64,000 nucleotides of DNA from positions 62,001 to 126,000 of the forward strand of contig JAKEHY010000038.1 in the NCBI GenBank assembly GCA_022614805.1, written 5' to 3'. Shown piece after piece: positions 8,411 through 58,970 of this stretch. This DNA is from Candidatus Zixiibacteriota bacterium (lineage in GTDB: Bacteria > Zixibacteria > MSB-5A5 > DSPP01). The notes beneath the pieces were generated by a model. That model was not told where the DNA came from, did no database searches, and worked only from the letters and a program-made list of their open reading frames with translations. Position 1 is the first letter of the stretch. Each line of letters starts with the position of its first letter. The position numbers were made by a program, and so were the translations under genes.

Positions 8411-8956
8411 TTAATCGTCGTCTTTTTTACCCCGGCCGCGGCGGTCATCTTCATCGTCGTCATCATCACCCCGGTCCTTGTGTTTTTTGGACTCCAGACG
8501 CCGCTTGGCTTCCTTGGCCTCCCGGTGGCTGGGAACGGCTGCCAGCGCCAGCTCGTAATGGGAGCGGGCTTCTTTATATTTTCCCCGTCTTTCGTACACC
8601 CAGCCGATTTTATATTCCACCCGGGCCGCCCAGGCCGGCTCGGAACGGAGCTCCAAAACGATGCGGTAATGTTTAAGACAGGGGTCGTACTCCCGCAGTT
8701 CCCGGTAGCATTCCGCCAAGTAGAAATGAGCCTCCCAGTTGGAGGGGTCTTTGGCAATGGCCAGTTCGAACTGGACAATCGCCTTGCGGTAGTGCCCCCG
8801 TTCATAAAAGCGAATGCCGTTGCGGGTATGCACCCGCGAGGCGTGCAGTTGTCCCGGCGGCTCCTTTTCTGCAACGACTACGGTACGGTAGCTGGTGCAG
8901 CCAGCCGCAAGGGCCGTTCCAATAAGAACCGTTACGAACAAAAGCATCCTGCGCAT
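8411..8956 (-). CDS. TPR-repeat lipoprotein (second of a tandem pair)
   Basis: 181 residues with a start set by AAGGAGGAGAT before ATG 8956. The signal peptide ends in the lipobox ALAAGC. The TPR core is closely similar to that of the neighbour at 7604-8164, including SRVHTRNGIRFYERGHYRKA and the EAHFYLAECYREL pattern. The C-terminal tail is very acidic then basic (DRGDDDDDEDDRRGRGKK), unlike the milder tail of its paralogue, so the two have diverged mainly at the end. A terminator follows each copy, so each is probably its own transcript. Function unknown; probably an envelope scaffold. Confidence 0.85.
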   Translation of the reverse strand: MRRMLLFVTVLIGTALAAGCTSYRTVVVAEKEPPGQLHASRVHTRNGIRFYERGHYRKAIVQFELAIAKDPSNWEAHFYLAECYRELREYDPCLKHYRIVLELRSEPAWAARVEYKIGWVYERRGKYKEARSHYELALAAVPSHREAKEAKRRLESKKHKDRGDDDDDEDDRRGRGKKDDD

Positions 8957-14067: not shown

Positions 14068-15201
14068 ATGACCAAACCGCAAGAGAGTACGGAAAAAATA
14101 AAGACGGTCGGCGATTTTCTGCCCATCAACGGTATCGACTACATCGAATTTTACGTCGGCAACGCCCGGCAGGCCCAGCATTTCTACCGCCACGTGCTTG
14201 GTTTCTCGTTGGTTGCCTACGCCGGACTGGAAACCGGCATCCGCGACCGGGCCTCCTACATTCTGGAGCAGGGGAAAATCCGCTTCGTTTTGACCACCCC
14301 GCTTATCCCCGAACACCCGATTTCCGAGCATATCCGCCTGCACGGTGACGGCGTCAAGGACATCGCCCTGTGGGTGGATGACGCCTTTCGGGCCTTTGAG
14401 GAAACCACCAAGCGGGGAGCCAAAGCGGCCTGGGAGCCCCTGGCTTTTCGGGACGAATGGGGGGAGGTGAAAAAAGCCTCCATTTTCACCTACGGGGAAA
14501 CCGTGCACACCTTCGTGGAGCGGAAAAACTACAAAGGGCCGTTTCTGCCCGGCTACAAAGCCGTTCCGCAACCGGATAAGCTTTCCCGCCCGGCCGGGCT
14601 CAAAATCGTCGACCACGTGGTCGGCAACGTCGGCTGGAACGAGATGAACAAATTCGTCGATTTTTACGAGCGGATTATGGGATTCCGGCTCTTCAAGCAT
14701 TTCGACGACAAGGATATCTCCACCGAATACTCGGCCTTGATGTCCAAAGTAGTGACCAACGGTAATGGACGGATCAAATTTCCCATCAACGAACCGGCGG
14801 AAGGAAAGAGGAAGTCTCAAATAGAAGAATACTTGGACTACTACAAAACCCCCGGCGTGCAGCACATTGCAATGGCCACGGATAACATCATCGACACGGT
14901 CGCCAAACTGACCACGCAGGGGCTCGATTTCCTCTACGTTCCCACGACCTACTATGACGACTTGCAAAAACGGGTGGGAAAAATTGACGAACCGGTGGAC
15001 CAGCTGGCCAAACTGGGAATATTAGTCGACCGGGACGACGAGGGGTATTTGCTGCAAATTTTCACCAAGCCGGTGGAAGACCGGCCCACTTTGTTTTTCG
15101 AGGTGATTCAGCGCAAGGGTTCCAAGAGCTTCGGCAAAGGGAACTTCAAGGCGCTCTTCGAGTCCATCGAGCGGGAGCAGGCCCGCCGAGGCAACCTGTG
15201 A
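14068..15201 (+). CDS. hpd: 4-hydroxyphenylpyruvate dioxygenase
   Basis: Converts 4-hydroxyphenylpyruvate and O2 to homogentisate and CO2, with non-haem Fe(II), in the cytoplasm. 377 residues, the usual length. The three iron ligands are visible: His183 (KIVDHVVGNV), His266 (GVQHIAMAT) and Glu345 (LFFEVIQRKG). The C-terminal helix SFGKGNFKALFESIEREQ is diagnostic for HPPD and separates it from hydroxymandelate synthase with fair certainty. The N-terminal half is the degenerate VOC module. It follows hisC after nine bases and an AGGAGG site. Confidence 0.97.
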   Translation: MTKPQESTEKIKTVGDFLPINGIDYIEFYVGNARQAQHFYRHVLGFSLVAYAGLETGIRDRASYILEQGKIRFVLTTPLIPEHPISEHIRLHGDGVKDIALWVDDAFRAFEETTKRGAKAAWEPLAFRDEWGEVKKASIFTYGETVHTFVERKNYKGPFLPGYKAVPQPDKLSRPAGLKIVDHVVGNVGWNEMNKFVDFYERIMGFRLFKHFDDKDISTEYSALMSKVVTNGNGRIKFPINEPAEGKRKSQIEEYLDYYKTPGVQHIAMATDNIIDTVAKLTTQGLDFLYVPTTYYDDLQKRVGKIDEPVDQLAKLGILVDRDDEGYLLQIFTKPVEDRPTLFFEVIQRKGSKSFGKGNFKALFESIEREQARRGNL

Positions 15202-15234
15202 GGGGAGTTCGGCTAAAAATCCGGGGCCTTGGTT

Positions 15235-15669
15235 GTGAAGATTGAACTGGCCGCCCGGTTCGGTTATCTACTTGCCGCTTTTCTTCTCCTATTAAGTGTC
15301 ATTCATATTTACTGGGCGTTTGGGGGCCCTTTGGGTCTTCAGTGGGCTCGGGGTGAAGGAGAAGTAAGCCCGCTTCGGCCATTTTCCAGGATTTGGGGGG
15401 TAGCAGTCGCTTTTTTTGTGGCTGGAGCCGGCGTTCTCGGCCGGATAGGGGTGTGGGGACGCTGGCTTCCGTCCCGCCTTTTCCGTTGGGGCATCTGGCT
15501 GCTTGCCTTAGTTCTGGCCGGTTATTCCGTGTTCGCGTTCATCCAATGGAGAGAGTTTCTATTTGCATCGCTGGGAGTGTTTGTTTCTCTTTGGGTGACA
15601 ATCGTAGCCCGGTATGCCCCATCTGGCAGGAATGGAAATGTAGCCTCCAAAAACCTTGAAAGTATATGA
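15235..15669 (+). CDS. DUF3995-type four-helix membrane protein
   Basis: About 144 residues with four hydrophobic stretches and the segment LLLSVIHIYWAFGGPLGLQW, which is characteristic of DUF3995 proteins of unknown function. The GTG at 15235 has GGGG eight bases upstream; the TTG at 15229 would be too close to it. The gene lies between hpd and the FAH-family gene in the same direction; nothing in its sequence indicates a part in tyrosine breakdown. Confidence 0.75.
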   Translation: MKIELAARFGYLLAAFLLLLSVIHIYWAFGGPLGLQWARGEGEVSPLRPFSRIWGVAVAFFVAGAGVLGRIGVWGRWLPSRLFRWGIWLLALVLAGYSVFAFIQWREFLFASLGVFVSLWVTIVARYAPSGRNGNVASKNLESI

Positions 15670-15694
15670 ATTCAGTCAGGAAAAACTATAACAA

Positions 15695-16684
15695 ATGTAT
15701 CTCGTAACCTTCGAGGTCACCACCCCTGTCGGCCGCAAACGCCGGCTGGGCGCCCAGACCGACAAGGGCATCATCGACTTGAACTTCGCCTGTGCGTATC
15801 AACTCAAAAAAGCGGGACAGGCCCAGCCGTATCGGATTGCGGACGCCTTCGTCCCGGCCGATATGCTTTCTTTTCTGCAGGGAGAGAAAAATTCAATGCT
15901 CCGCGCCCAAGAGGTCTTGGCCGCTTTGAAAGCTGATTTGGAATCGGAAAAAGTTACCAGTGGCGAAGAAGGGGAACGGCTGTTTTATCGTTTGGACGAA
16001 GTGAAATTGAAAGCTCCTCTCCCCAGTCCGACCTCTCTGCGGGATTTCTACACCTTCGAACAGCACGTCAAAAAGGCCTTCGAGCTGCGCGGCGAGCCGG
16101 TGCCGCCGGAATGGTACGAAATGCCGGTTTACTATAAAGGCAACCATCAATCCATCATTGGGCCAGATGACGAAGTGACTTGGCCCGGCTTCACCGAAAA
16201 GTTTGACTACGAATTGGAGTTGGCCTGCATCATCGGCAAAAAAGGGAAAAACATCCCGGAGGAGAAGGCCGGCGACTATATCGCCGGTTTTACCGTGATG
16301 AACGATTTCTCCGCCCGTGACATTCAGAAAAAGGAGATGAAAGTCCGCTTGGGGCCGGCCAAAAGCAAAGATTTCGCCACGGCTTTGGGTCCTGTTTTGG
16401 CCACGCCGGATGAAATCGGCAACCCCCACCGGCTCAAAATGACGGCGCGGATAAACGGCGAGGTTTGGTCGGAGGGAAATTCGGAGAAAATGTACTACAC
16501 CTTCGAGCAGATGATTGCCTTCGCCTCCAAAGAAGAGACTTTATATCCCGGCGACGTTTTGGGCTCCGGCACGGTCGGCGGCGGCTCTGGCTTGGAACTG
16601 GACCGCTGGGTCAAACCGGGGGATATTATCGAGCTGGAAATCGATAAAATTGGTATATTACGAAACCGAGTGGTGAAAAAATGA
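15695..16684 (+). CDS. Fumarylacetoacetate hydrolase family protein
   Basis: 329 residues. The C-terminal two thirds carry the FAH fold: FYTFEQHVKKAFELRG, YYKGNHQSIIGPDDEV, FDYELELACIIGKKGKNI (acidic metal ligands), FTVMNDFSARDIQ and the Gly-rich GSGTVGGGSGLEL. Between hpd and hmgA the obvious role is the last step of the homogentisate pathway, hydrolysis of fumarylacetoacetate to fumarate and acetoacetate. The sequence is closer to the short prokaryotic FAH group than to the long mammalian enzyme, so acylpyruvase activity remains possible; it may also act on maleylacetoacetate directly. Confidence 0.9.
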   Translation: MYLVTFEVTTPVGRKRRLGAQTDKGIIDLNFACAYQLKKAGQAQPYRIADAFVPADMLSFLQGEKNSMLRAQEVLAALKADLESEKVTSGEEGERLFYRLDEVKLKAPLPSPTSLRDFYTFEQHVKKAFELRGEPVPPEWYEMPVYYKGNHQSIIGPDDEVTWPGFTEKFDYELELACIIGKKGKNIPEEKAGDYIAGFTVMNDFSARDIQKKEMKVRLGPAKSKDFATALGPVLATPDEIGNPHRLKMTARINGEVWSEGNSEKMYYTFEQMIAFASKEETLYPGDVLGSGTVGGGSGLELDRWVKPGDIIELEIDKIGILRNRVVKK

Positions 16685-17939: not shown

Positions 17940-18577
17940 TTATCGACCCCAAGGCCAACGACCCGAAAAACATTTACAAGTTGATGATTGGGTCGATAGT
18001 CCCCCGCCCGATTGCCTTTGTTTCCACCCAAAACCCGGAGGGGGCCGCCAATCTGGCCCCCTTTTCCTTTTTCACCGGCGTTTCCGCCAACCCCCCGGCG
18101 GTTCTCTTTTGCCCCCTGGTGCGCATCTCGGACAGTAAGACCAAAGACACCCTGCGTAACATCGCCACCACCAAGGAGTTTGTGGTCAATGTTGTATCCG
18201 AAGCTTTTGCCGAAGAGATGAATCTAACTTCGGCCGAGTTCCCGCCGGAGGTGAGCGAGTTTTCCGAATCCGGCCTGACCCCCGTTCCTTCCCAAAAAGT
18301 GAAGCCGCCCCGGGTCAAGGAATCCCCCATCAATATGGAATGCCGCCTGCTCCAAATGGTCCCGGTCGGCTCTGAACCTCTTGGGGGGACGGTGGTTATC
18401 GGTGAAATAGTTCTCTTTCACGTCGCGGATGAACTATTCGACAACTTCCGCATTGATTTGAAAAAACTAAAACCAATCGGCCGCCTTGCCGGCTCCTCCT
18501 ATTGCCGGGTAACCGACATTTTTGACCTCATCCGCCCCAAAACCGGTGAAATAAAACCGAACGGGTCGGCATCCTGA
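17936..18577 (+). CDS. Flavin reductase-like FMN-binding protein
   Basis: 213 residues with the split-barrel flavin reductase-like fold: MIGSIVPRPIAFVSTQNPEG, NLAPFSFFTGVSANPP and VNVVSEAFAEEMN are typical. Such proteins bind FMN and reduce it or act on their own substrates. The start is TTG 17936, overlapping the hmgA stop by four bases, with GAGGG and AAGGG upstream; longer frames inside hmgA are not credible. As the last gene of the tyrosine operon it could supply reduced flavin or protect against oxidative by-products; no partner monooxygenase is present. Confidence 0.85.
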   Translation: MIIDPKANDPKNIYKLMIGSIVPRPIAFVSTQNPEGAANLAPFSFFTGVSANPPAVLFCPLVRISDSKTKDTLRNIATTKEFVVNVVSEAFAEEMNLTSAEFPPEVSEFSESGLTPVPSQKVKPPRVKESPINMECRLLQMVPVGSEPLGGTVVIGEIVLFHVADELFDNFRIDLKKLKPIGRLAGSSYCRVTDIFDLIRPKTGEIKPNGSAS

Positions 18578-18603
18578 TTGCGTTGAGCGCAATTTCTTGC
18601 TTA

Positions 18604-18631
18604 TTGACATTTAATTGGGAACGAATTTAAT
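18604..18631 (+). promoter_or_regulatory. Promoter of the first five-cysteine gene
   Basis: TTGACA (18604-18609), 16-base spacer, TTTAAT (18626-18631). The same layout with near-identical spacer (TTGGGAACGA in both) recurs before the paralogue at 19313, which supports a functional site. Confidence 0.65.
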
Positions 18632-18665
18632 TTCGCCCGTATAAATGAATGTTGGAGGAACCTTT

Positions 18666-18704
18666 TTGAAACTCGCATCGTTTTTCAATTCCATAAGGAG
18701 GTGA
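18666..18704 (+). CDS. Putative 12-codon leader ORF 1
   Basis: TTG start with GGAGGA six bases upstream (18654-18659), reading L/M-K-L-A-S-F-F-N-S-I-R-R and stopping at TGA 18702. The last codons AGG AGG TGA are themselves the SD of the secreted protein that starts at 18709. A matching frame of identical length precedes the paralogue (19371-19409), with mostly conservative differences (K/R, S/T, S/S, I/V). Translation of the leader would place a terminating ribosome on the next start. This could still be a coincidence of a strong SD reading as Arg-Arg-stop. Confidence 0.4.
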   Translation: MKLASFFNSIRR

Positions 18705-18708
18705 TACT

Positions 18709-19254
18709 ATGACTAAAAAAGTCTTAGCGATAGCGCTCTTTGTCGTATTGGCTTTTGCTTTGGTTTGGGCCGGCGATAAAAAAGCCACTACCAGCGCCCA
18801 AACGGACGCAATGAAGGCCGAGATGATGAAGTGCGCGGTCTGTAAAAACGTGGCCACGCATATGGACGAAATCGGTCCAATGGGTATGGAAGCCGCGAAG
18901 CTCAATGACGGTTTGGCTGTCCGCCACTGGGTGAAAAGCAGTGACGCCGCGAAAATTACGGCCTTCCACTCCGCCTGCAACGCCGCCAACAAGGCCGGCG
19001 AAGCCACGCCTGGCTGGACCGACGAACAGGCCAAAACCGACCTGTGCGAGTTCTGCCAGGACATGCGCACCGCTATGAAAGCCGGCGCCAAAATGAGCTA
19101 CGGCGACACCAAAAACGGGAGCATAATGGTGCTTACCTCGCCGGAACCCACCGTCCAGGCCCAGCTTGGCACGCTGCACGAAAAGTGCGCGATGATGGCC
19201 GCTTCTATGGAGGCCCCGGCCACCACCACGAAAACCAAAGCTGAAAAGCAGTAA
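18709..19254 (+). CDS. Secreted five-cysteine protein, paralogue 1 (unknown family)
   Basis: 181 residues. A signal peptide (LAIALFVVLAFALVWAG) predicts export. The mature part has Cys42-x2-Cys45, Cys90 (in FHSAC), Cys113-x2-Cys116 (DLCEFCQ) and an extra Cys160 (LHEKC). The motif MRTAMKAGAKMSYGDTKNG follows the second CxxC. The two following genes share this five-cysteine spacing. CxxC pairs without a following His exclude c-type haem; metal binding or a disulfide role is possible. I do not recognise the family. The SD AAGGAGGTGAT is near-perfect, a promoter lies at 18604 and a terminator at 19273, so expression is probably strong and monocistronic. Confidence 0.85.
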   Translation: MTKKVLAIALFVVLAFALVWAGDKKATTSAQTDAMKAEMMKCAVCKNVATHMDEIGPMGMEAAKLNDGLAVRHWVKSSDAAKITAFHSACNAANKAGEATPGWTDEQAKTDLCEFCQDMRTAMKAGAKMSYGDTKNGSIMVLTSPEPTVQAQLGTLHEKCAMMAASMEAPATTTKTKAEKQ

Positions 19255-19272
19255 TCTTTCTTGTTTCACCCT

Positions 19273-22577: not shown

Positions 22578-24404
22578 ATGTGCGGCATCGTGGCCTACGT
22601 GGGAGAGAAAAAAGCGGTCCCGATTTTGATGGAAGGGATTCACCGGCTCGAATACCGGGGGTATGATTCGGCCGGCATCGCCCTGCTCGAAAAGGGTAAA
22701 CTGACCATCCGGAAAGCGGCCGGTAAAATAGCCGTTCTGGACAAAATTTTGGAAGGGAACAACTTTTCCTCCTCCATCGGTTTTGCCCATACCCGCTGGG
22801 CCACCCACGGCGAGCCGAACGATTCCAACGCCCATCCCCATACCGACTGCAAGGGAAAGCTGGCTCTTATCCATAACGGCATCATTGAAAACTACAAAAC
22901 CCTTCGGGAAGTTTTGGCGGAAAAGGGGCACATCTTCCGCACCGAAACGGACACCGAAGTGCTGGCCCATTTGATTGAAGAGTACTACGATGGCGACCTG
23001 TTGGAAGCCGTGCGGGAAGCCCTGACGCAGGTCGAAGGAACCTACGGCATCGCCGTTTTGCACGAAGACAGCCCGGATGAAATCATCGCCGCCCGGCGGG
23101 GCTCGCCGATTTTAATCGCCCGCGGGGAAGGCGAAAACTTCGTCGCTTCCGACGCCTCCGCGGTTTTGCGCCACACCAATCAGGTGGTTTATTTGGAAGA
23201 CAAGGAAGTGGCCCAAGTCCGCAAGGATGGCTTCTCGGTTTCCACCATCGACAAAGTGGAAGTCAACCCCAAGCTGGAAGAAATCTCCTGGAGCCTGGAA
23301 GAGGCGGAAAAAGAGGGGTTCGCCCACTTTATGCAGAAAGAGATTTTCGAGCAGCCGAACACGCTGGAAAACTGCCTGCGCGGCCGGCTGAACTTTACCG
23401 ACGGAACGGCGCGTCTTTCCGGGTTGCGCCTTTCCCCGCGGGAGTTGGCGGATGTGGAGCGCATCATCATCACCGCCTGCGGCACCTCCTGGCATTCGGC
23501 CCTGGTCGGCGAATATTTGATTGAGGAAATCGCCCGCCTTCCGGTGGAGGTGGAATACGCCTCGGAGTTCCGCTACCGCTCGCCGGTGGTCAATCCGGGG
23601 ACTTTGGTTTTTGCCATCTCCCAATCGGGAGAAACGGCCGATACGCTGGCGGCTCAAAGGGAGGCCAAAAGCCGGGGAGCGAAGGTTCTGGCCATCTGCA
23701 ACGTGGTCGGTTCCACCATCGCCCGCGAAGCCTCCGGCGGTCTTTATATCCACGCAGGGCCGGAAATCGGGGTCGCCTCCACCAAGGCCTTCACCGGGCA
23801 GGTGATGACTTTGGCCTTAATCACGCTGCTTTTGGGGCGGATACGGACTCTTTCGCTAGAGCGGGGGAAGGAGTTTATCGCCGGACTTTCCAAAATCCCC
23901 GGTCTGGTTAGACAGATTCTGGAAACGGATGACCAGATTAAGAAACTGGCGGAGAAATATTACACCAAGGAAAATTTTCTCTATTTGGGCCGCGGCATCA
24001 ACTTCCCGGTGGCTTTGGAAGGAGCCTTGAAGCTGAAGGAAATATCCTACATCCACGCCGAGGGGTATCCGGCGGCGGAAATGAAGCACGGCCCGATAGC
24101 CCTAATCGACGAAAATATGCCGGTCGTGGTGGTTGCCCTGAAAGACCCGATTTACGACAAGGTGGTCTCCAACATTCAGGAAATAAAGGCCCGCCGGGGG
24201 CAGGTGATTGCCGTGGCGACCGAAGGGGACAAAGAAATCTCCCACCTGGCCGAGCACGTGATTTACATCCCGGAGACCCTGCCGGTTTTGACCCCGATGC
24301 TTTCGGTCGTTCCGCTCCAGCTTCTGGCCTACCACATCGCCGTTCTGCGCGGCTGCAACGTCGACCAGCCGAGGAACCTGGCGAAGAGCGTTACGGTCGA
24401 GTAG
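22578..24404 (+). CDS. glmS: Glutamine-fructose-6-phosphate aminotransferase (isomerizing)
   Basis: 608 residues, full length. Makes glucosamine-6-phosphate from fructose-6-phosphate and glutamine, the step before GlmM. The N-terminal glutamine amidotransferase begins with the nucleophile Cys2 (MCGIVAYVG) and shows HRLEYRGYDSAGIAL and HTRWATHGEPN. Two SIS sugar-isomerase domains follow (TACGTSWHSALVGEYLIEEI; ISQSGETADTLAAQREAKSR). The C-terminus ends in DQPRNLAKSVTVE, the conserved catalytic tail. It is probably co-transcribed with glmM. Confidence 0.98.
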   Translation: MCGIVAYVGEKKAVPILMEGIHRLEYRGYDSAGIALLEKGKLTIRKAAGKIAVLDKILEGNNFSSSIGFAHTRWATHGEPNDSNAHPHTDCKGKLALIHNGIIENYKTLREVLAEKGHIFRTETDTEVLAHLIEEYYDGDLLEAVREALTQVEGTYGIAVLHEDSPDEIIAARRGSPILIARGEGENFVASDASAVLRHTNQVVYLEDKEVAQVRKDGFSVSTIDKVEVNPKLEEISWSLEEAEKEGFAHFMQKEIFEQPNTLENCLRGRLNFTDGTARLSGLRLSPRELADVERIIITACGTSWHSALVGEYLIEEIARLPVEVEYASEFRYRSPVVNPGTLVFAISQSGETADTLAAQREAKSRGAKVLAICNVVGSTIAREASGGLYIHAGPEIGVASTKAFTGQVMTLALITLLLGRIRTLSLERGKEFIAGLSKIPGLVRQILETDDQIKKLAEKYYTKENFLYLGRGINFPVALEGALKLKEISYIHAEGYPAAEMKHGPIALIDENMPVVVVALKDPIYDKVVSNIQEIKARRGQVIAVATEGDKEISHLAEHVIYIPETLPVLTPMLSVVPLQLLAYHIAVLRGCNVDQPRNLAKSVTVE

Positions 24405-56616: not shown

Positions 56617-58011
56617 TTACTTGTCAACAATGGCGGCCATCATCTCGGCTTCGGCCACCAACGTGTCGCCGACTAAGGCTTTGCCGGAGATTTTGCAGGT
56701 GCCGCGGCGCATCGAAAGCATTTCCACCTCCAGCCGCAGGGTGTCGCCGGGAATCACCGGCTTGCGGAAGCGGACGGCGTCCATTCCCATAAAGTAGGCG
56801 ACCGATTTTTTGGGGTCTTCCACGGCGTGGAGCATCAAAAAGCCGCCGGCCTGGGCCATCGCCTCCACAATCAAAACCCCCGGCATCACCGGGTGGCCGG
56901 GGAAATGCCCCTGAAAGAAGGGCTCGTTTATGGTCACGTTTTTTATGGCCACGACTTTTTTCTTCGGCTCCAGGTCAATCACCCGGTCGATGAGCAGAAA
57001 GGGATAGCGATGGGGCAAAATTTCCTGAATGGCGCGGATATCCAAGAGATATTCTGTCTTGGGCTCCTTTTGATATTTCGTTTTTATCTGCTCTTTTTCA
57101 TACAGGGAGTGCAATTTTTTGGCCAGTTCCACGTTGGCGGCATGGCCGCTTCGGGCGGCCAAAACGTGGGCTTTCAACGGCACGCCCAAAAGGGCCAAGT
57201 CACCGATTAGGTCCAACGCTTTGTGGCGGCAGGGCTCGTTGGGAAAGCGGAGGGGAACGTCGTTCATCAGGCCATTTTTGCCCATGAATAACTCTTCTTT
57301 CAGCGCCAGCATCTTTTTCAGCCTCTTCAAATCCTCCGGGCCGACGCCGTCGTCGCAAATCACCACGGCGTTGGACAAATTGCCGCCCTTGATAAGCCCC
57401 ATCTTGGCCAACGATTCGACCTCCGACAAAAAGCAGAAGGTGCGGGAGGGGGCGAAATCGTTGACGAACTCGTCCTTCAGCGAGACCATCGAGGTGTATT
57501 GGGTGCCCAGGGCCGGGTTTTTGTAGTCCACCAAGAACGTGACCCGGAAATCGTCGGAAGGCAAGACCACCAAATCGACGTGGCGGTCCGGAATCGAGTG
57601 CGAAATGGGGGTTTCCACTTCCAGAAACTTGCGGGGGGCGTCCTGCTCGACCAAGCCGGCTTTTTGCAAAATTTCGACGAAGGGCATTGCCGAGCCGTCG
57701 CCGACCGGCGGCTCGCTGTTGTCCAGTTCCACGATGACATTATCGATTTCCAGCCCGGAGAGAGCGGCCATCACGTGCTCCACCGTATAAACCTTTACCT
57801 CCCCTTTGGCGATGGTTGTGCCGCGCAAAATATCCACCACGTTGGAGATGTGGGCGGCCACTTCCGGCTTTCCATCCATATCGGTGCGGACGAAGGTGAC
57901 CCCGGAATCGATGGCCGCCGGCTTGAAGGTGAGGGTGGTCTGGTTACCGGTGTGCAGCCCCACGCCGGATGTGGAAACGGGCGCTTTAATCGTGCGCTGG
58001 GTCTTGTTCAT
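56617..58011 (-). CDS. lpxC/fabZ: LpxC-FabZ fusion: UDP-3-O-acyl-GlcNAc deacetylase / 3-hydroxyacyl-ACP dehydratase
   Basis: 464 residues. Residues 1 to about 310 are LpxC, the zinc deacetylase that commits lipid A synthesis: [20 protein letters not shown], the zinc His in [20 protein letters not shown] and [15 protein letters not shown] with His and Asp ligands. After a short linker, residues about 320-464 are Fab[21 protein letters not shown] and the catalytic His/Glu in [20 protein letters not shown]. The fusion joins two enzymes that compete for 3-hydroxyacyl-ACP and is typical of Bacteroidetes and relatives. It is the first gene of the lpx operon. Confidence 0.97.
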
Positions 58012-58133: not shown

Positions 58134-58149
58134 TGTTTCACGTGAAACA
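58134..58149. promoter_or_regulatory. parS site (ParB/Spo0J binding)
   Basis: TGTTTCACGTGAAACA, a perfect 16-bp palindrome equal to the bacterial parS consensus, two bases beyond the stop of the FTP-domain gene and about 120 bases upstream of lpxC/fabZ. ParB loads chromosome-organising proteins from such sites. No parA, parB or replication gene is in the window. Confidence 0.9.
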
Positions 58150-58151
58150 AA

Positions 58152-58970
58152 TTAGGTTGCAAAAAAGATGAGTTGTCCTACCCTAATAACAAAAGCTCCT
58201 TTTGTTAGATTATCTTTCAAGTTAATCCTCATTATTCGATTGGCCTTGTGAAGGATTTGGCCGGAATTGGCATCGATAAAATACTCCCAAGCCCCAGGAG
58301 GACTATCTACATGTATTTTGACCAGCCAGACAAGATAGTAATTGTTTTGATGAGGGAAAACCCGGAGCTCCGACGAAATCATCTGAACGTTTTTGCTTTT
58401 TCGAGGTAGGTCATTTTTAGCTTTTACCTCCGCGAAAGTGACATCAACCCTCGGCGTGGTGGAAATGTCGATGTCCGGATAGAGAGAACCATTGACTAAA
58501 TCCAGTTTTCCTTTGGAAGTAAAGTGGGCGTTTATCTTTCCGTTCCATACCTCTACGCCACCGTAGAACTGTTTGAAAAAAACATGTTTCATCCCGGTTT
58601 CGCCTGTTCGCACTCTTTCTAATCTTAACTCCGATAAGGGTTGTGATATTCCAAAAATGCCTTTATTCCTTTCAAAAAACTCCAAGGCAATCTCAACAGG
58701 GTCCGACTTTGTCAAACCTTCGCTGAGTTTTCCCTCAAGCCACTTAGGGGTGCCAGAGATTGAGTCGATTCTGACTTGGACGTAGGGATTACTTTGACGG
58801 AAGGCGGATATTTTCTCCTTTCTTATTGTTCGGATGCTGTCCAGTTTTTTGGATTGGTCGGAAGTCGATTGCTCTTCAGCGTAAACTGTTGAAAAAGCGA
58901 GCAAGGGAACTGTGATGAAAAGTCCGGCGAATGCCAATCGGGTTTGGGATTTTGCTGATAAAAATTTCAT
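58152..58970 (-). CDS. Exported FTP/PepSY-like propeptide-domain protein without a protease domain
   Basis: 272 residues. Signal peptide (LAFAGLFITVPLLAFSTVYA), then an FTP-type domain (VEIALEFFERNKGIFGI; MKHVFFKQFYGGVEVWNGKI) and PepSY-like strand sequence to WEYFIDANSGQILHKANRI. In M4/M36 metalloproteases these regions form the chaperone-like propeptide, but no HExxH domain follows: the frame stops two bases before the parS site. Orphan propeptide, truncated protease or free inhibitor are all possible. It is visibly A+T-richer than neighbours. Confidence 0.75.
   Translation of the reverse strand: MKFLSAKSQTRLAFAGLFITVPLLAFSTVYAEEQSTSDQSKKLDSIRTIRKEKISAFRQSNPYVQVRIDSISGTPKWLEGKLSEGLTKSDPVEIALEFFERNKGIFGISQPLSELRLERVRTGETGMKHVFFKQFYGGVEVWNGKINAHFTSKGKLDLVNGSLYPDIDISTTPRVDVTFAEVKAKNDLPRKSKNVQMISSELRVFPHQNNYYLVWLVKIHVDSPPGAWEYFIDANSGQILHKANRIMRINLKDNLTKGAFVIRVGQLIFFAT

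Follow-up and report, generated by a model that had tools for sequence, protein, structure and literature searches.

The closest described counterparts of the locus analyzed here are the chromosomal ParABS systems, among them those of Bacillus subtilis (Spo0J) and Caulobacter (ParB), which use the identical 16-bp palindrome in several copies per genome (survey of Livny et al. 2007, cited in PMC7333895). Inserted sites have delineated parS-permissive zones of roughly 500-650 kb in Caulobacter and Pseudomonas (PMC5815017, PMC7333895). The sites recognized in nucleoid occlusion (NBS) are defined by an A at position 1 and a C at position 6 of each half (PMC7383237). In that study, R173 and G201 are also said to be absolutely conserved among extant ParB orthologues; Ser at position 201 is nevertheless tolerated for parS binding and is common in dual-specificity variants (PMC7383237).

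Here we describe a parS sequence, TGTTTCACGTGAAACA, in a 64-kb window (the whole stretch of DNA that was analyzed). It is very probably a standard chromosomal parS, serving as an accessory ParB loading site remote from the parAB locus. Such a site is ordinary in kind; it is the dispersed arrangement of parS in this bacterial order that is mildly interesting.

Results

The parS sequence lies at positions 58134..58149 of the window, with no strand assigned, and is a perfect palindrome that matches parS at 16/16 positions, exactly as the initial annotation had it. It is the sole parS match with three or fewer mismatches in the window. A chance occurrence had been judged very unlikely, and a first-order Markov model agrees: the expectation for a perfect copy is 1.2e-5 per 64 kb. 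The half-site TGTTTCAC (19262..19269, plus strand), previously listed as a partial match, is indeed present, but 1.6 8-mers of this kind are expected by chance per window, and we place it outside the parS system.

The site is intergenic, since it lies 2 bp past the stop codon of a gene for an FTP/PepSY propeptide-domain protein (58152..58970, minus strand) and 122 bp upstream of the start codon of a bifunctional lpxC-fabZ gene (56617..58011, minus strand; NF009667, 643 bits). The initial annotation had likewise put it in the gap between lpxC/fabZ and an A+T-rich orphan gene; the gap stands, whereas the ‘orphan’ has recognizable FTP and PepSY domains. Lipid A genes, an aldehyde dehydrogenase and uvrB are among the genes nearby. 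Neither ParA nor ParB was seen among ten neighboring genes that were tested, a set made up mostly of core envelope and repair functions; for these immediate surroundings, the earlier description of a site outside any parAB context holds. The closest named relative found for the LpxC belongs to Candidatus Zixiibacteriota (63% identity), and a scan of named genomes with LpxC-FabZ returned distant relatives only.

We then turn to the source genome as a whole (38 contigs, 2.56 Mb, 93.4% complete), a scan of which had been proposed at the outset. It contains exactly four perfect parS sites, against about 5e-4 expected under a first-order Markov model: the window site (C1:120134), C1:148233, C23:7494 and C23:59507. 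There is no degenerate halo around this set: copies with one mismatch are absent across the genome, and the number with two mismatches, two, is at the level of a reversed-pattern control, which itself gave zero matches at one or no mismatch.

These copies bear on the reading that the palindrome is merely parS-like, being either a terminator hairpin downstream of the FTP/PepSY gene or an operator for a regulator of lpxC. The site's closeness to the stop codon and the T run that comes after the site on the minus strand would suit such a role, as would the A/T runs that flank parS sites in a congener (see below) and a weak promoter-like match that overlaps the window site in a promoter scan (one match versus 0.5 expected). 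However, the predicted hairpin has an AT-rich stem of just 6 bp (-4.7 kcal/mol) that the terminator scan did not detect, and the identical 16-mer also occupies divergent intergenic regions (C23:7494 and C23:59507), in which a terminator would be out of place; an intrinsic terminator is thereby rejected. As for an operator, the flanking genes differ from one parS copy to the next and give no sign of a shared regulon. We regard the terminator or operator reading as highly improbable.

ParB was not found in the 93%-complete source assembly, which was searched with two ParB families as well as with the ParB of a congener. The annotation had said that the absence of any ParB homologue from the genome would count against a parS site, and the assembly does lack one. 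Instructive in this respect is the congener (G001; same genus, 99% complete), in which the gene order is mnmG-parS-parS-rsmG-parA-parB, about 7.5-10 kb from dnaA. Its contig C78 carries dnaA at 8759, mnmG at 14171-16237, perfect parS sites at 16251 and 16469, and then rsmG, parA and parB (18174-19034), at which point the contig ends. The dnaA contig of the source genome (C24) is collinear with C78, the aligned DNA around dnaA being about 69-89% identical, and it stops at base 23083 (equivalent to C78:15216) inside mnmG, 1 kb short of the parS pair. RsmG, too, is absent from the source assembly, in which we found a sub-threshold match only. Most simply, an assembly gap beside the dnaA contig would have swallowed the parS-rsmG-parA-parB segment: on this reading ParB is missing because the contig break inside mnmG removes it together with rsmG, and its absence is therefore uninformative about the site. 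The assembled genome contains no ParB sequence, and that parB is present in this organism is our inference. SMC, by contrast, is encoded in the source genome (955 bits).

An alternative is that the lineage has lost ParB and that its parS sites persist by inertia as decayed relics. The failed ParB search would agree with this, but all four sites are perfect (4/4) with no one-mismatch copies alongside them, parABS is complete in the congener, the stretch that is missing begins at a contig end and takes in rsmG, and SMC is present; the relic explanation is likewise highly improbable. Identification as parS is well supported by the four perfect copies, the lack of a degenerate halo and the canonical parABS of the congener: TGTTTCACGTGAAACA has the 16-bp palindrome of chromosomal parS, it recurs in its genome, and in relatives it is found near parAB.

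A wider survey covered 39 genomes, 35 of which have parS (at most one mismatch) and 33 of which have ParB_N. Of 31 tabulated class members with ParB, 25 have a parS site no more than 4 kb from parB; in a further five, parB and the nearest parS lie on separate contigs. The order that includes the source genome, the congener and a relative with a complete genome (G002) differs from the class in that additional parS sites are distributed over the chromosome arms. The congener has seven sites over five contigs, and the complete genome has three perfect sites, the nearest of them more than 56 kb from parB. This scattering of additional copies over the chromosome in the lineage is why the window site is remote from ParA and ParB genes. 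Our literature search found no paper combining ‘Zixibacteria’ and ‘ParB’.

Several further features of these genomes deserve mention. The complete genome departs from most of the class in that some 60-70 kb separate parAB (C1 around 200747) from rsmG/dnaA. A leuB-like gene adjoins parS at G001:C62:19365 and at G002:C1:571470, but on opposite sides; the matching region of the source genome (C1:216.5k) has no parS, and the congener has extra sequence there. At all seven of the congener's sites (L077-L082), A/T flanks extend the palindrome past 16 bp (AAT...ATT at 6/7), and several of them share a CCAAGAGnnAAT-like stretch that lies about 45 bp further along. Together, the extended palindromes and this stretch suggest that a longer unit has been copied or homogenized.

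The complete genome also permits distances from the origin to be assigned. Cumulative GC skew in this genome is lowest at 265,548, 6 kb from dnaA (271,834), and highest at 1,300,816. Relative to this skew-defined origin, parS sites are at -8, -177 and +306 kb, and parB is at -65 kb; all of the sites are in the origin half and none in the ter half, the 306-kb site being at about 29% of an arm. Orthologues of the genes on C1, the window's contig, lie at a median of 329 kb from oriC, and those of C23 genes at 172 kb, as compared with 530 kb for uniform placement (C1 and C23 only); this placement describes a modest origin-half bias of C1 and C23 without collinearity. The lpxC-operon orthologues themselves are mid-arm, about 555 kb from oriC. 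The initial annotation had favored an origin-proximal window, which these data do not establish: dnaA belongs to a different contig (C24), and lpxC is mid-arm in the relative. The alternative it had offered, a lineage with distant parS sites, is a better fit to the spread of parS in both the congener and the complete genome.

Three of the four sites in the source genome have counterparts in the congener. Those at C23:59507 and C23:7494 are inside blocks that align with the congener through parS. The site at C1:148233 matches two parS sites in the congener, one at each junction of a rearrangement that joins sequences from C23:32.2k and C1:148.2k; about 110 bp around parS is repeated at these junctions (L079:9920-10030 and L081:11095-11205), with 87% identity. 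The rearrangement between the two genomes seems to have duplicated parS, and its geometry would fit an inversion, perhaps about the origin.

It is the window site that has no counterpart, because synteny breaks beside it: homology upstream of lpxC ends within about 100 bp of parS, and a different gene lies beyond in the congener. No parS with five or fewer mismatches was found in the lpxC flanks (about 1.5 kb) of G001, G002, G003 and G018. Without a counterpart in the congener, the site may be recent and dispensable. The nearby break would also be expected had an integrated plasmid or other mobile element delivered the site, which would then serve that element. Against this, the ten neighbors tested include no ParA or ParB and are mostly core genes, and the 16-mer is of the chromosomal type that is found beside parAB across the class; delivery by such an element is also highly improbable. 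We noted post hoc that several off-locus parS sites adjoin synteny breaks.

The ParB of the congener (L080:18174-19034) aligns with solved ParB/Spo0J structures, its GERR motif is intact, and it keeps the helix-turn-helix Arg equivalent to Caulobacter R173. At the equivalent of Gly201 it has Ser, whereas all 20 other class ParBs aligned have Gly. Three of the congener's seven parS sites are of the form TGTTTCACGCGAAACA, in which A6 is changed to G in one half; no other genome surveyed contains this form. The pairing of Gly201Ser with TGTTTCACGCGAAACA comes from one lineage, in which two of the three variant sites are copies of each other, and halves with A6 changed to C are found in genomes with Gly201. 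It is possible that sequencing error in the draft genome underlies the observation. We have considered a bolder proposal, that the centromere is being dispersed in this order: chromosome rearrangements would copy parS to both junctions, and in the congener's species a near-invariant DNA-reading residue of ParB would have changed from Gly201 to Ser together with drift, at three of the seven sites, from A6 to G at the base next to it. We hold this to be unlikely.

Discussion

Returning to an accessory chromosomal parS as the preferred reading, we envisage that ParB-CTP would nucleate on the window site and slide into the flanking DNA, that it would load SMC there, and that the site would join a partition complex with those near dnaA and parAB. 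Within the order, copies of parS have probably spread from an ancestral place beside parAB to intergenic spots along the arms. The site supports canonical ParABS segregation in a little-studied lineage, and provides a natural example of parS dispersed over the chromosome arms rather than clustered at parAB. Such dispersal bears on why the number and position of parS sites vary, and on how new sites arise.

With respect to known systems, the locus resembles the nucleoid occlusion pair of Noc and NBS in that the protein families are paralogous and the palindromes similar. Nevertheless, TGTTTCACGTGAAACA has G1 and A6 and so lacks the A1 and C6 that define a Noc-binding site, and residue 173 of the congener's protein is Arg instead of Gln. 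The likeness to chromosomal ParABS is closer, the congener having parABS with mnmG/rsmG next to dnaA, and SMC being present; the difference is that the majority of sites here stand alone, separated from one another by tens to hundreds of kb and not grouped beside parAB, and that the 306-kb site of the complete genome is beyond the usual 20% ori domain (PMC7022226). In the complete genome, the extra sites are confined to a broad origin zone, as in parS-tolerant zones (PMC5815017) and as for the origin-distal sites of B. subtilis (cited in PMC7333895); the spread from -177 to +306 kb there resembles the permissive zones of Caulobacter and Pseudomonas. Those zones were defined from inserted sites, whereas the dispersal described here is natural, in an uncultured lineage.
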